NCBI GenBank assembly: GCA_945881835.1
Contig: CAMCVP010000009.1
Span: 1-64,000, forward strand
Length of the DNA: 64,000 bases
DNA from: Chryseobacterium gleum
GTDB lineage: Bacteria; Bacteroidota; Bacteroidia; Flavobacteriales_D; Sanyastnellaceae
Direction: 5' to 3'
Numbering within the stretch: position 1 is the stretch's first letter; each line of letters starts with the position of its first letter. A program made the position numbers and the translations under genes. The notes beneath the pieces were generated by a model. The model ran no database searches and was not told the DNA's origin. It saw only the letters and a list, made by a program, of their open reading frames with translations. Positions 58,583-64,000 of this stretch are shown piece by piece.

Positions 58583-60682
58583 ATGTCTAAACTGGAAAAC
58601 GATATTTCATTTTTGAAGGGTGTAGGTCCTGCGCGCGCCGATCAATTCCGCATGGAATTGGGCATTCGCACGTGGGAAGATTTGCTCATGCATTATCCGT
58701 TTCGTTATGTAGATAAGAGTCAGGTTCAGAAGGTGCGCGACGTGAAGTCAGACGCCGTTGCGGTGCAGTTGCAAGGAACAATCGTTCGTTTAACAGAACT
58801 GGGTGAAGCGCGCGCCAAGCGTTTGGTCGGAATCTTTCAAGACGAGACGGGTACCATGGAGTTGGTGTGGTTCAAAGGAGCGCGTTGGCTGAAGAGCAGT
58901 TTGCCTTTGAACAAGCCTTGTTTGGTGTATGGAAAACCAACCGAGTTCAAAGGCAAATTCAATATTGCTCATCCGGAAGTGGAAGAGATTGAATCTTCGC
59001 GCATCGCTGCTGGCGTGGGTTTGAAGCCTGTGTACAGCACTACAGAGAAGATGTCGAACAGAGGTTTGAACAGCAACGTCATTGGAAAATTAACGCTGCA
59101 GTTGTGTGAAGAAGTTCGAAATGAAATTCCGGAAGTGTTGCCGCAGGAATTGATTCAGCAATACAAATTAATTTCTCGCGCGGAAGCGTTGGTGCAATTG
59201 CACGCGCCTGCGAATGCAGAGAAGTTGGAGCAGGCGCGCAGAAGATTAAAGTTTGAAGAATTGTTTTTCCTTCAGTTGCAAGTGTTGCAAACGAAGTTGG
59301 CGGGCACGGTAGAGCAGCGCGGAGTGGTGTTCGAGAAGGTGGGAGAATTATTCAATTCGTTTTATAAAAAGCATTTGCCGTTTGAATTAACGGGGGCGCA
59401 GAAGCGCGTGGTGAAAGAGATTCGCACCGATGTGGTGAAGGGCTTTCACATGAACCGTTTGGTTCAGGGCGATGTTGGAAGTGGAAAAACCATTGTTGCG
59501 CTCATGGCTATTTTGTTGGCTATTGACAACGGCTATCAAGCATGTCTCATGGCACCTACAGAGATTTTAGCGAATCAGCATTACGAAGGCATTTCGCAAT
59601 TGCTCGAGCCGTTGGGAGTTCGTGTTGAATTGTTAACCGGTTCAGTGAAGAAGAAGAGTCGTGTTCCGTTAATGGAAGATTTAAAGAGTGGTGAATTGAA
59701 GTTCATTATTGGAACGCACGCTTTGATAGAACCTGTTGTTGAGTTTGCGAATTTGGGATTGGTGGTGATCGATGAGCAACATCGGTTTGGTGTTGCGCAG
59801 CGCGCTGCCTTGTGGAAGAAGGCGGCCTTGCCTCCGCATATCTTGGTTATGACAGCAACGCCTATTCCGCGCACGTTGGCCATGACGGTGTATGGCGATT
59901 TGGATGTGAGTATTATCGATGAGCTTCCTCCGGGAAGAAAGCCGGTGAATACGCAGTGGCACACCGATGCTTATCGGTTGATGTTGTTTGAATTTATTCG
60001 CCAGGAAATTGCATTGGGTCGTCAGGTCTATGTTGTTTATCCGATGATTGAAGAGAGCGAGAAGATGGACTACAAGGATTTGTTCGACGGCTACGAGAGC
60101 ATGTCGCGCGCCTTTCCATCTCCGCAGTATTTCATTTCCATTGTTCATGGAAGAATGAAGGCAGAAGATCGCGATTTCGAGATGAAGCAATTTATAGAGA
60201 AGAAGACACAGATTATGGTGGCTACCACGGTAATTGAAGTCGGGGTGAATGTTCCGAATGCGAGTGTGATGGTGATAGAGAGTGCCGAGCGCTTTGGCTT
60301 GTCGCAGTTGCACCAGTTGCGCGGCAGGGTAGGGCGTGGAGCCGATCAGAGTTATTGTGTCCTTATGACCGGACACAAACTCAGCGACGACACGAAGTTG
60401 CGTATGGAGACGATGGTTCGCACCACAGACGGATTTGAAATTGCTGAAGTCGATTTACGCTTACGCGGTCCCGGCGATTTGGCCGGTACAGCGCAGAGTG
60501 GTGTTTTGCAGTTGCGTATCGCAGACATGGTGAAGGACCAACAGATGATGGCTGCCGCCCGCAACATCGCCAATGAATGGCTTACGGAAGATCCAAATTT
60601 ATCTAGCGAAAGCAGCGCCCCTATTCGCGAGGAACTTTTGCGTTTGAAGAAGAAGAAGAGTGATTGGAGTGGGATTTCTTAA
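58583..60682 (+). CDS. recG: ATP-dependent DNA helicase RecG
   Basis: 699 aa branch-migrating SF2 helicase that rescues stalled forks. An N-terminal wedge domain with OB fold (about 55-165) is followed by the helicase core: Walker A GDVGSGKT (296-303), motif II DEQH (397-400), TATPIPRTLAMT motif III, and VATTVIEVGVNVPNAS plus QLRGRVGRG in the second RecA domain. Length is usual. It ends at TAA 60680-60682, and the hairpin array begins at the very next base. Confidence 0.96.
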   Translation: MSKLENDISFLKGVGPARADQFRMELGIRTWEDLLMHYPFRYVDKSQVQKVRDVKSDAVAVQLQGTIVRLTELGEARAKRLVGIFQDETGTMELVWFKGARWLKSSLPLNKPCLVYGKPTEFKGKFNIAHPEVEEIESSRIAAGVGLKPVYSTTEKMSNRGLNSNVIGKLTLQLCEEVRNEIPEVLPQELIQQYKLISRAEALVQLHAPANAEKLEQARRRLKFEELFFLQLQVLQTKLAGTVEQRGVVFEKVGELFNSFYKKHLPFELTGAQKRVVKEIRTDVVKGFHMNRLVQGDVGSGKTIVALMAILLAIDNGYQACLMAPTEILANQHYEGISQLLEPLGVRVELLTGSVKKKSRVPLMEDLKSGELKFIIGTHALIEPVVEFANLGLVVIDEQHRFGVAQRAALWKKAALPPHILVMTATPIPRTLAMTVYGDLDVSIIDELPPGRKPVNTQWHTDAYRLMLFEFIRQEIALGRQVYVVYPMIEESEKMDYKDLFDGYESMSRAFPSPQYFISIVHGRMKAEDRDFEMKQFIEKKTQIMVATTVIEVGVNVPNASVMVIESAERFGLSQLHQLRGRVGRGADQSYCVLMTGHKLSDDTKLRMETMVRTTDGFEIAEVDLRLRGPGDLAGTAQSGVLQLRIADMVKDQQMMAAARNIANEWLTEDPNLSSESSAPIREELLRLKKKKSDWSGIS

Positions 60683-60855
60683 CGCAACGGAGTTGCGATG
60701 ACGGCGAAGCCGATGACACATTTCATGTGATGACCTTCTTCGAAAGATGACACTTTGTGATGACAATCTACTATTGATGACCACTGCGTGGATGACACTT
60801 TGTGATGACAATCTACGATTGATGACGAACAAGTTCGATGACCGTTCCGGATGAA
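60683..60855. repeat. GATGAC/mini-hairpin array (11 units)
   Basis: Ten exact GATGAC copies start at 60697, 60712, 60729, 60746, 60759, 60776, 60791, 60804, 60821 and 60837; a variant GATGAA starts at 60850. Between them lie short spacers that are each self-complementary but differ in sequence: CGCAACGGAGTTGCG, GGCGAAGCC, ACATTTCATGT, CTTCTTCGAAA (imperfect), ACTTTGT, AATCTACTATT (one mismatch), CACTGCGTG, ACTTTGT, AATCTACGATT, GAACAAGTTC and CGTTCCG. Read on the minus strand, each hairpin is preceded by GTCATC. Eight of these eleven loops are GNA triplets on one strand (GGA, GAA, GCA, GTA); the two ACTTTGT spacers have TTT/AAA loops and GAACAAGTTC has loop AA. The array begins at the base after the recG stop codon. 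Confidence 0.93.
60746..60835. repeat. 45-bp tandem duplication within the hairpin array
   Basis: The 30-bp pair of units GATGAC-ACTTTGT-GATGAC-AATCTACkATT at 60746-60775 recurs at 60791-60820, exactly 45 bp on, with one difference (T to G at the AATCTAC hairpin). The next hairpins after each copy differ: CACTGCGTG versus GAACAAGTTC. Confidence 0.85.
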
Positions 60856-60862
60856 AGGCAAC

Positions 60863-60933
60863 AACGAAGTTCCCGTTACGCAGTAGGAATTATGAAATAG
60901 GAATTAAACCGAAGGTTTTCCAATAACGTAGTT
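60863..60933. repeat. Continuation of mini-hairpins without GATGAC
   Basis: Five further perfect mini-hairpins with GNA loops follow the array: AACGAAGTT (60863-60871), TACGCAGTA (60877-60885), TATGAAATA (60891-60899), AAACCGAAGGTTT (60906-60918) and AACGTAGTT (60925-60933). A direct repeat TAGGAATTA (60884-60892 and 60898-60906) separates some of them. GATGAC is no longer present here, so this part looks like a degenerate or related array. Confidence 0.75.
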
Positions 60934-60938
60934 CCAGA

Positions 60939-60983
60939 GCCCCTCAGGGCGTCATCCGAACTGCCCCCAGCAAAGCTGGGGGA
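60939..60983 (+). repeat. C5AGC/GCTG5 hairpin element, copy 1
   Basis: Left stem-loop GCCC-CTCA-GGGC (60939-60950), then GTCATCCGAACTG, then the strong hairpin CCCCCAGC-AAA-GCTGGGGG (60964-60982) and A. The hexamer GTCATC lies 5' of the hairpin, as in the array on the minus strand. Confidence 0.85.
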
Positions 60984-61023
60984 TAAAGGTTGTGATGAGA
61001 GTTAATTTCAAGCAAAAAGAGCT

Positions 61024-61071
61024 AATAAAAAAAGAGAGCTCCTACTTCTGTGTAAGAGCTCTCTTTAGATT
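61024..61071. terminator. Bidirectional terminator between the two C5AGC elements
   Basis: AAAGAGAGCTC (61031-61041) pairs perfectly with GAGCTCTCTTT (61056-61066) around a 14-nt loop. Seven A residues are at the left (61027-61033), so the minus strand gene ends with seven T, and T-rich TTTTTC follows at the right. It should end the T9SS gene at 61126 and possibly recG transcripts. Confidence 0.85.
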
Positions 61072-61076
61072 TTTCT

Positions 61077-61123
61077 CCCCCAGCTTTGCTGGGGGCATTT
61101 CGGATGCCGCTCGCAGAGCGAGC
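61077..61123 (-). repeat. C5AGC/GCTG5 hairpin element, copy 2 (inverted)
   Basis: On the minus strand: GCTCGC-TCT-GCGAGC stem-loop (61123-61109), then GGCATCCGAAATG, then CCCCCAGC-AAA-GCTGGGGG (61095-61077) and A. It is the inverted relative of copy 1, with GGCATC replacing GTCATC and a different left stem. Its outer end is 2 bp from the stop codon of the last T9SS gene. Confidence 0.85.
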
Positions 61124-61125
61124 TT

Positions 61126-64000
61126 TTATTTCTGCACAACAAATCGCTTCACCACCTCATTTACTTTAATGAAGTAATTTCCATTATTGAAATTTTCAAG
61201 CTGAATGAGTTCGTTGGTTGATTGAATTTTGTTTTTGTAAATCACTTTTCCAATTGCATCGAAAACAACATATTCTTCACCGAGAAGAGATGTGTTCACT
61301 TGAAGTGTGATGCTAGTTGAAGCTGGATTAGGATAAAGTGAAATTCTTGTTGAAGTGAATTCCTCAATGCCCACTGTTGAATCGAGAATATTCGAATGCG
61401 AATAGACTAACGTTCGTTGCGGATCGCAACTTACTCCCGCCACTTCAATCATATAATATGTTTCTCCAACTGATGGATTAACATCTGTGAATGAGTTTAA
61501 GTTGCTTGCAATTGTGGTAAGCAGATTAAGTGAACTTGCAGATGAACCTCTGTAGATTGAATAGCTTCCAAAATCAAAACCTTCGTAGTCACTCCAGATT
61601 AAATTCACGTTGCTACCCAATCCTTGGTTCGCAGTTAAGTGGATTGTTTTGTGGAAGTTTGACGTAGATGATAAGATTCCGCAAGTGTCGATCAATGCGA
61701 GTTTATATCGATTTGCTTGAATTTGAGGATCTGAATTTAAGTCTTCAAAAATTCCATTAGATCCGTAGGCAACTGTTCCAATTTGTGCATACTCATTCGC
61801 AACATTGGTTTCTTTTAACACTACATATGAATTAATCAAATCTGAAGTAACCGGTTCCCAAACCACATTGTTCTTTCCCGTTACTTGATCGACAGTTACA
61901 ATACAAACTGGCACTGGATCTAGAATTGAGAAGTTCACTGATACAGGTCCAGCTGAAACTGCACATCCGTTTTCATCAATTGCTGTTATACTGAAATCTC
62001 CTGAAGCATTTACATTGATAGAACTAGCAGTAAGTCCGTTATTCCAAAGAAGGTTTGTATATGTTCCTCCTGAAACAGTCAATGTTGCTTCTCCGCCTGC
62101 ACAACCTGCGTTAGCTTGCTCAACAAGAATACTTGGAATGATTGCACTTGGCAACTCTGTTATTGAAACAATATTTGAAACTGCGGTACATCCGTTTTGA
62201 TTGATACTCACTTGATAATTTCCACCTGATGAAACTGAAATATTTTGATTTGTTTCATTTGGAATTAAAGTTCCATTCAAGTACCATTGGTAGGCAATTC
62301 CAGTAGCTGAAGTAGCTGCTTGCAATTGAAGTGTTGTTCCTGCGCAGAACGTATTGGTGGTTGAACTTGCTGCGCTTACTGAAATTGAACAGTTGTTATT
62401 TACAGCGAATAGGTAAGAAGAGACCGAGCAAGTGCCATCGCTTTCCGTAAGTGTCAATTGATAAGGTCCGTTTTGTCCCCACATAATAGACACGTTGTTT
62501 GTGCCTTGTCCAGATGCAATTGCTCCATTGGTTACAGTCCAATTGTATGTGTTTCCTGGAATTGGATTTACAATGTAGTTGTATGCGTTGAATGGTGTAA
62601 TGTTCGGATTTCCAATGATGGTTTGAGCTGCGAAAGAACTATATGTAAGAACCTTTGCTCCAGACATCCAACTTCCGGAGATTCCGTATGACGCATCTGG
62701 TATAACAAAACAAGCATAAGTTCTTGTTCCTGTGAATGCGTCAACTGTAAGAGATGAAGCAGTTGCTCCTGGAATTATGTTCCAACCTGAAGTGTTGGAT
62801 CCTGATGGAGCGGGATTGTTGCCTGTTTTGAAGTGCCATTGGAGGGAGTAGTTGGTAATTGCTGTTGGGACAGTGCTGATTGAAATATCATAACTTGTTA
62901 CCTCTGGGCAGATGGTATTGGTTGTGTTCTCAACGAAGCCATAGTCAAATGGAATTCCTGCACACGTGCAATCCGATAAATAAGCATCTAAAATTGTTGT
63001 TGAATTACCATCATCACATGTGGTACTTGTAAAATGACAAGACCCATCGTCACACCCCGCCGTTGAATTGAAATTACACGCAAGAGGGTTGGTACATCCG
63101 GCATAAATACAAGTTCCATCGTTACAAATTGCATTACTGTTGTAGTTACATGCATTCGTTTCAGTGCAACCTGGAATTAAGCAATCAAAAACACCAAGAG
63201 AAAAAGTAGTTGTGTCAGAACCAAATTCATTTACTGCGATTACCGTGTAATTTGTAAGCGATGATAAAGCTGTCGGAGTTCCTGAAATTTCACCAGTCGA
63301 AGAATTGAAAATTAATCCCGCAGGCAATTCCGGATAGATTCTCCAACTTCCTAGAGAGATTTTTTTGATTTTTTGATTAGATTCATCCGAAACTACAAGG
63401 TCACCATTCAAGTCAAGCGCTAGATCGAAAGGATTATAGAACCTCGCAAGAGTGCCAACCCCGTCAAGATCTCCAATTTCGCTACCTGCTATCGTGGATA
63501 CAAAACCTTGAGGTGTGATTTTGCGGATACGATGATTAGATTGATCTGTTACAAAAATATTATCAAAAAGATCAATGACAAGGCTATTTGGGTTATAAAA
63601 CGTAGCATTGGTGCCAGAGCCATCTAAATTACCTAAACTACCTCCAACAAAAGTTGAAACAATTCCTTCTGTAGATATTTTTCTAATAGCTTGATTTGAT
63701 TGATCAACAACAAATATGTTTCCTTGGCTATCCAGTGCAATGGCACTTGGTGAATAAAACTTACTTTCGGCAGTTGTTCCGTTCACAAATCCTTGCTCTC
63801 CCCCCGCAATAGTAGTTACATTTCCATTTGTGTCTATTTTTCTAATTCTATTGTTGTATTTGTCAGCAACATAAATGTTCCCCGATTGATCCATTGCAAT
63901 TCCTTTGGCAGCGTAAAATTGGGCGGATAAAGCGGACGCATCTAAAAATCCTTGGGTACTCCCTGCGTAATCAGTGACATTGCTATTCGAGTCGATTTTG
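61126..64000 (-). CDS. T9SS-secreted NHL-repeat protein (5' end outside window)
   Basis: At least 957 codons, open through the window's right edge: the frame continues from the Met codon at 63894 upstream through NVTDYAGSTQGFLDASALSA, so the start is beyond base 64000. At least four NHL-type repeats (NIYVADKYNNRIRKIDTNGN, IFVVDQSNQAIRKI, IFVTDQSNHRIRKI, LVVSDESNQKIKKI) form a propeller. Then come a He_PIG-like Ig domain (GLIFNSSTGEISGTPT), Cys motifs GCTETNACNYNSNA...DGTC shared with the giant protein at 4813-10809, several PKD/Ig-like domains and a T9SS type A sorting domain (SLYPNPASTSITLQV to VVKRFVVQK). It is probably a cell-surface or secreted adhesin; the ligand is unknown. Confidence 0.9.
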   Translation of the reverse strand, partial: KIDSNSNVTDYAGSTQGFLDASALSAQFYAAKGIAMDQSGNIYVADKYNNRIRKIDTNGNVTTIAGGEQGFVNGTTAESKFYSPSAIALDSQGNIFVVDQSNQAIRKISTEGIVSTFVGGSLGNLDGSGTNATFYNPNSLVIDLFDNIFVTDQSNHRIRKITPQGFVSTIAGSEIGDLDGVGTLARFYNPFDLALDLNGDLVVSDESNQKIKKISLGSWRIYPELPAGLIFNSSTGEISGTPTALSSLTNYTVIAVNEFGSDTTTFSLGVFDCLIPGCTETNACNYNSNAICNDGTCIYAGCTNPLACNFNSTAGCDDGSCHFTSTTCDDGNSTTILDAYLSDCTCAGIPFDYGFVENTTNTICPEVTSYDISISTVPTAITNYSLQWHFKTGNNPAPSGSNTSGWNIIPGATASSLTVDAFTGTRTYACFVIPDASYGISGSWMSGAKVLTYSSFAAQTIIGNPNITPFNAYNYIVNPIPGNTYNWTVTNGAIASGQGTNNVSIMWGQNGPYQLTLTESDGTCSVSSYLFAVNNNCSISVSAASSTTNTFCAGTTLQLQAATSATGIAYQWYLNGTLIPNETNQNISVSSGGNYQVSINQNGCTAVSNIVSITELPSAIIPSILVEQANAGCAGGEATLTVSGGTYTNLLWNNGLTASSINVNASGDFSITAIDENGCAVSAGPVSVNFSILDPVPVCIVTVDQVTGKNNVVWEPVTSDLINSYVVLKETNVANEYAQIGTVAYGSNGIFEDLNSDPQIQANRYKLALIDTCGILSSTSNFHKTIHLTANQGLGSNVNLIWSDYEGFDFGSYSIYRGSSASSLNLLTTIASNLNSFTDVNPSVGETYYMIEVAGVSCDPQRTLVYSHSNILDSTVGIEEFTSTRISLYPNPASTSITLQVNTSLLGEEYVVFDAIGKVIYKNKIQSTNELIQLENFNNGNYFIKVNEVVKRFVVQK

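Follow-up and report, generated by a model that had tools for sequence, protein, structure and literature searches.

What the array of short hairpins immediately downstream of recG represents, and in which form its structure matters, is the question raised by this locus. The window analyzed here, the source of all position numbers given without a contig prefix, is a stretch of 64,000 nt at the start of contig 9 of a 2.53-Mb assembly (source genome, G000). The recG gene (58583–60682, plus strand; Pfam RecG_wedge, DEAD, Helicase_C and RecG_dom3_C) ends in a stop codon at 60680–60682 that abuts the array. A first hairpin, CGCAAC-GGA-GTTGCG, with a perfect 6-bp stem (60683–60697, plus strand), follows the stop directly, and the array proper, delimited from its sequence and its ssDNA folds, occupies 60697–60855 on the same strand. 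The preliminary description had reported ten GATGAC copies plus a GATGAA alternating with hairpin spacers, and this reading was borne out: exact copies begin at 60697, 60712, 60729, 60746, 60759, 60776, 60791, 60804, 60821, and 60837, and a GATGAA at 60850 closes the array, with CGTTCCG between it and the last GATGAC (which ends at 60842). The nine spacers are, in order, GGCGAAGCC, ACATTTCATGT, CTTCTTCGAAA, ACTTTGT, AATCTACTATT, CACTGCGTG, ACTTTGT, AATCTACGATT, and GAACAAGTTC. Of these, CTTCTTCGAAA, with a single outer mismatch, and AATCTACTATT, with three paired bases only and a 5-nt loop, fall short of perfect inverted repeats, the other seven being perfect. Because GATGAC begins with G and ends with C, an outer C-G pair is part of each hairpin and the true linker is the 4-nt ATGA (TCAT on the opposite strand).

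Five more hairpins, which had been described as a continuation of the array to 60933, are indeed present, but their linkers differ (CCCGT, GGAAT, CCAAT). This inner array (60863–60933, plus strand; AAC-GAA-GTT, TAC-GCA-GTA, TAT-GAA-ATA, AAACC-GAA-GGTTT, and AAC-GTA-GTT) is kept at the same place in a second species, G001, and its type (CCAAT/GGAAT/CCCAT) is found again elsewhere in the genome. Beyond it lie a REP-like palindrome, GAGCCCCTCAGGGCGTCATCCGAACTGCCCCCAGCAAAGCTGGGGG (60937–60982, plus strand), and its inverted partner (61072–61123, minus strand; a 39-nt inverted repeat, 92% complementary), with a terminator-like hairpin carrying A and T runs at its sides (61031–61066, no strand assigned) between the two. 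A GTCATC inside the first palindrome is probably a variant of GACATC, the word present in G001, and no array linker. The partner lies downstream of a convergent minus-strand gene (61126–63894) whose product has NHL repeats and, at its C terminus, a secretion (T9SS) sorting domain (Pfam NHL, Por_Secre_tail).

The excess of linker-hairpin units over controls that the preliminary description had anticipated is present throughout the genome. GATGAC pair counts and order-level pattern counts refer to whole genomes, other G000 statistics to about half the genome and those for other species to small samples. The pattern GATGACN{5,20}GATGAC occurs 114 + 92 (206) times in G000, against 1 + 8 (9) for the reversed pattern, and a second-order Markov control gave 0 GATGAC units where the real sequence of the identical 0.84-Mb sample has 86; the two controls rule out a chance origin. 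By a test that admits 2-bp stems and loops up to 5 nt, 88 of the 94 spacers in that sample qualify as perfect inverted repeats; the 94 comprise 56 distinct sequences. A CRISPR array was rejected as an identity, the repeat being only 6 nt (not some 24–47 nt) and the spacers 7 to 13 nt and self-complementary.

An unbiased scan of 1.23 Mb of G000 for any 5- to 6-mer repeating around a perfect hairpin recovered GATGAC (98 pairs) together with AAGAT (56), ATCAAT (37), CGAATG (30), AAGGT (19), and CGAGGG (18); the Markov control, run on the first 0.84-Mb sample, gave 0 or 1 per family. Written as the bases between hairpins, the respective linkers are ATGA, AGA, TCAA, GAAT, AGG, and GAGG. In four families, the linker is exactly 4 nt and sits at the hairpin foot, and ATGA is the linker between C..G hairpins in 355 of 368 instances, a count in which overlapping loci enter more than once. 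In the AAGAT and AAGGT families, both of them often coding, many spacers do not form hairpins. On its opposite strand, the ATCAAT linker contains TTGAT (L096:5459–5699, L074:7817–8079), the insertion target of ISDra2; the match may be coincidence.

That structure, and not sequence, has been conserved is supported by the stems. Covariation was examined in 95 distinct GATGAC spacers with 3-nt loops and at least 60% of stem pairs Watson-Crick; their 316 stem pairs comprise 308 Watson-Crick, 2 GT, 4 AC, and 2 other pairs. Among spacer pairs differing at two positions, 32 are compensated and none leaves two unpaired stem positions, and single differences fall 69 times in the loop and 10 times in the stem, although both comparisons run across loci and their events are not independent. 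Stem changes without compensation had been named as speaking against selection or an enzyme acting on the hairpins; the stem differences seen here are compensated. The loop-closing pair is C-G in 85 of the 95 spacers, and 66 have either a GNA loop (27) or TNC, its equivalent read from the other strand (39), in agreement with the GNA-type loops already described. Pairing and loops behave alike in the ATCAAT and CGAATG families. When folded as ssDNA, the window array forms eleven separate hairpins, with z-scores of −2.98 and −2.83 on the two strands; folded as RNA, it is no better than shuffled sequence (z −0.04). Over 64 arrays, DNA z-scores are lower than RNA z-scores (p = 2e-13), a difference driven by GATGAC arrays and to be read with the caveat that DNA energy parameters may favor such triloops. 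For the outward strand of ATCAAT arrays the order is reversed, the RNA fold being the better one, and CGAATG arrays give little fold signal. For the GATGAC element, covariation and folding are DNA-like rather than RNA-like, which upholds the single-strand-DNA reading first proposed for it.

The arrays are also arranged in an ordered way. All 22 pairs of opposite-strand arrays within 250 bp of one another are convergent. In 9 of the 11 GATGAC pairs, the arms are separated by a core of exactly 13 nt and near-identical sequence, GCTCCGCGAAGCG or its reverse complement, and three of the seven ATCAAT pairs share a core of 20 nt. The window copy has one arm only. By gene positions from our own codon-usage gene model, GATGAC arrays with a gene nearby are oriented away from its 3′ end in 18 cases and from its 5′ end in 16, whereas gene 3′ ends are preferred by ATCAAT arrays (13 of 16) and CGAATG arrays (13 of 15). 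The convergent pairs, and the occurrence of GATGAC arrays at both gene ends, indicate that polarity belongs to an intergenic element rather than to transcripts. Some arrays lie within genes. In fdhD (C6:76463–77254; L261:16463–17257), a GATGAC array follows the residues CGICGKTAFEP in frame, and this insertion is found in six species (G000, G001, G003, G004, G005, and G006) with a varying number of units, length differences in multiples of three, the frame always kept, and covarying stems (GAGC/GCTC versus GAAC/GTTC); it is absent from the aligned FdhD proteins of other genera (G009, G011, G025, G026, and G029; G007 was not part of the alignment). A gene whose translation reads as acetyl-CoA-synthetase-like (acs) carries an in-frame AAGGT array, encoding GAMQGPAEGGE repeats, in G000 (L095:6187–8205), absent at the aligned site in G004, and one unnamed gene contains an AAGAT array in frame.

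GATGAC arrays occur in eight of nine genomes of one uncultured Flavobacteriales genus (G000 and seven of the eight others), the exception being G007, with zero matches to the array pattern; sample names suggest freshwater metagenome-assembled genomes. Among 299 genomes of the order, out-of-genus matches were rejected as arrays, since they have the appearance of Asp-rich coding sequence, of simple tandem repeats, or of isolated hits due to chance. Asp-rich coding repeats were also considered as the origin of the arrays themselves, an explanation that fits the out-of-genus matches that were read and fails for the arrays. None of the linker families was found in the sequence sampled outside the array-bearing genomes, 160 kb from G007 and some 550 kb drawn from thirteen further genera of this family. 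Viral carriage was rejected, as ten IMG/VR viral contigs matched one pattern and none had an array. Two other repeats came to light in these comparisons. Several contigs of the genus g9 (G270, G182, and G168) have 7-nt tandem repeats, GATGACA/GATGACG, unrelated to the hairpin arrays, and in a pool from ten other genera of the family (L304–L323), TAGTCACTA recurs between GTCAC/GTGAC-type words, with 20 pairs and one spacer sequence. No account of such arrays turned up in the literature searched, a weak indication that they are new.

The comparison of loci between species, suggested in the preliminary description as a check for expansion or contraction, showed arrays that lengthen and arrays that are absent. 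One orthologous locus has 8 GATGAC copies in G000 and 25 in G004; at others, arrays gain a unit or are absent, block duplications are seen within single loci, and array cassettes are common to different loci. At recG itself, the place of the GATGAC array of G000 is taken in G001 by an ATCAAT array, with the inner array and the REP-like palindrome kept, and the locus at C9:68.6 kb shows the same exchange between these species. Hairpin order differs at the swapped loci, so one array replaced another; a linker conversion with the hairpins kept was accordingly rejected. The locus comparisons caught no insertion event marked by a defined target or by duplication of one, and the one clear array absence (L261:2630 versus L280) could be a deletion. 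In G006 (C10; L113:585–2320), a long extra stretch follows a CATTCG array relative to G000 and by eye resembles an IS transposase gene. Sister linker families, convergent two-arm elements, in-frame gene copies, and the swap of linker family at recG all go beyond what had been described from the window.

Rickettsia palindromic elements occur between genes and in frame inside genes, as single longer palindromes with a family sequence. The in-frame copies in fdhD and acs are a point of likeness; here, in contrast, there are arrays of mini-hairpins with a constant linker, free stem sequence, and no family palindrome. REPINs and BIMEs (PMC3116915, PMC6006769) are likewise dispersed and mostly intergenic, with inverted hairpin pairs around a short core, a constant tag, and tandem clusters, and the present arrays have such inverted arms around a short spacer, but with arms that are themselves arrays of up to 25 short units, a palindrome free to vary, and several coexisting linker families. 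As regards mobilization within genomes, what is seen are shared cassettes and core, family swap, and presence or absence between species, with no insertion caught among them. RAYT-associated GTAG and CGTC REPs (PMC3733652, PMC8266576) share the plan of a tetranucleotide tag plus hairpin, and in some tested REPs the perfect stem and the loop matter for recognition (PMC8266576). The REP geometry proposed earlier for the window array stands in that a constant short linker precedes each hairpin, as in a guide plus hairpin, but the tag is TCAT/ATGA (or TTGA, ATTC, and CCTC in other families), and not GTAG: no GT[AG]G tetranucleotide sits at the hairpin foot, and the palindrome sequence is not conserved within the genome. 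CGTC-tagged REPs have CGTC (or TGTC/CCTC) at one end and stems of 8 to 9 bp (PMC3733652); here the linkers differ and stems are 2 to 6 bp. IS200/IS605 ends (PMC6006769) also consist of a hairpin with a 5′ guide tetranucleotide and are acted on as ssDNA, although the arrays contain no transposase gene. Hairpins made by template switching (PMC8794818, PMC8604942) are similarly perfect inverted repeats kept paired by compensated changes, but they are isolated, whereas these are arrayed with common linkers and core. We describe the arrays as a REPIN-like dispersed palindromic repeat and do not assign them to the RAYT REPs, because the tag, a conserved palindrome, and a flanking RAYT gene were each looked for and none was found.

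A PF01797 search identified Y1 genes in G000 (two), G001 (one), G004 (one), and G006 (two), and no matches in G002, G003, G005, G007, or G008, of which only G003 and G007 are about 95 to 96% complete. Both G000 proteins (C1:448580 and C14:11314) score as IS200/IS605 transposases, with one RAYT match well below the curated cut-off, and carry YIQNQKEHH/YIQNQKNHH motifs resembling subclass 1.2 of PMC6006769, for which no REPs are listed there. The Y1 genes of G000, G001, and G004 are flanked by palindromes other than the arrays. Those around the gene at C1:448580 (L085:1414–1893), GAGCCCCTNAGGGCGACAT...ATGCCCCCA...TGGGGG, are of the same kind as the window palindromes at 60937–60982 and 61072–61123, and apparently make up a REP system in a Y1 subclass for which none was reported. 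The gene at C14:11314 (L108:7233–7673; also L087 and L088) belongs to a second Y1 clade and has other flanking palindromes, GGCATGGGCTAACACCCATGCC and GAGCCCCTTGGGGCGACATTACCC.

Several explanations for the arrays were weighed. At the RNA level, a transcribed chain of hairpins might terminate transcription, protect an mRNA 3′ end or bind a protein; the window array lies directly 3′ of the recG stop, and the 3′-end preference of ATCAAT and CGAATG arrays is also what an RNA role predicts. Yet the near absence of G·U pairs (2 of 316) argues against selection on RNA, the window array has no RNA fold signal, GATGAC arrays are about as frequent at gene 5′ as at 3′ ends and lie in frame in fdhD as do AAGGT units in acs, and no Rfam family reaches its gathering score in 60400–61400, so that we regard an RNA element as highly improbable. 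In another hypothesis, an insulator or nucleoid factor binds duplex DNA at GATGAC in a sequence-specific way, with the hairpins as spacers. An almost invariant linker in copies 13 to 19 bp apart would suit such a protein, which would, however, have no need for perfect inverted-repeat spacers with covarying stems and C-G-closed GNA loops, and at recG and C9:68.6 kb its supposed site is replaced by ATCAAT between species; this, too, we hold to be very unlikely.

In a further explanation, a Y1 (HUH) single-strand-DNA transposase of these same genomes would use the arrays as substrates or landing sites, with the linker as guide tetranucleotide and the GNA hairpin as recognition structure, as in IS200/IS605 ends and REPs; 4-nt linkers at the hairpin foot in four families and an inverted two-arm layout as in REPINs speak for it. 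The genomes richest in arrays (G000, G004, G006, and G001) are those with Y1 matches, and linker-hairpin units belonging to other families lie no more than 800 bp from each of the two G000 Y1 genes, compared with 12% of genes at large, a nearness that is suggestive only. The correspondence proposed between Y1 genes and arrays holds for these four genomes and breaks down in G003 (96% complete), which has 48 array matches and no Y1 match; moreover, no GATGAC unit lies within 800 bp of any Y1 gene examined. The Y1 proteins also stay below the RAYT cut-off. Given the different flanking palindromes and the lack of a Y1 match in G003, a Y1 gene was rejected as source of the cognate enzyme of GATGAC, and the link to an HUH enzyme made in the preliminary description is at best weakly supported; we retain it as a tentative possibility. 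Alternatively, there may be no enzyme and no selection on the fold, with slippage or unequal recombination between linkers changing array length and polymerase template switching re-copying one arm from the other, so that a single change becomes a compensated pair. Such a process has been documented (PMC8794818, PMC8604942), and stems that are almost only Watson-Crick, with compensated changes, are in keeping with it, as are single loci that differ in unit number or carry duplicated blocks; fold-back would, besides, be favored by hairpins that are stable in ssDNA. Loop inversion, considered as proof of template switching, shows no excess (11 observed versus 11.7 expected by permutation), although short arms may not show it (PMC8604942), and the mechanism leaves unexplained the near-invariant linker, the 13-nt core across loci, the convergent polarity, and the restriction to one genus. 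As a complete account it appears doubtful to us; as an account of how stems stay paired, it is a serious rival.

We consider it probable that the window array is one copy of a genus-restricted dispersed repeat that matters as folded ssDNA and is built like a multi-hairpin REPIN. The unit would consist of a 4-nt linker (ATGA/TCAT) and a mini-hairpin with an outer C-G pair and usually a C-G-closed triplet loop, mostly GNA on either strand. Many copies would be two convergent arrays around a common core, often of 13 nt, and others, such as that in the window, single arms. Array length would change by recombination or slippage between linkers, cassettes would be shared between loci, and one array would at times replace another, while stems drift and yet stay paired, either because the element needs its hairpin in ssDNA or because template switching re-copies one arm. 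Against this reading stand the lack of a caught insertion and of a cognate enzyme, the 3′-end preference of the ATCAAT and CGAATG arrays, and the fold results for these two families. In this reading, the element would act as ssDNA, be mobile, and have its linker and hairpin recognized together by an enzyme, for which a Y1/HUH protein is the leading, if uncertain, candidate.

In known bacterial palindromic repeats, the palindrome is usually conserved, which makes conservation of sequence and of fold hard to separate. In the present arrays, only the fold is conserved; the loops are of the class expected of stable ssDNA mini-hairpins, and G·U pairs are almost absent. We know of no repeat class with this combination of unconstrained stems, a fixed linker, and several linker families in parallel. 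We speculate, as a rather unlikely possibility, that this is a shape-conserved, linker-coded repeat system in which the families of one genus draw on a shared stock of GNA-type mini-hairpins and differ chiefly in the fixed 3- to 4-nt linker, which would serve as address or guide for an ssDNA enzyme; if so, families with different addresses would coexist and their copies would replace each other at a site. With these arrays, one can ask in a natural setting whether folded ssDNA, as opposed to RNA or duplex DNA, is what counts in cells, and whether hairpins stay paired through selection or through template switching; the several linker families may also provide a route to an enzyme that is directed to its target by a short guide.
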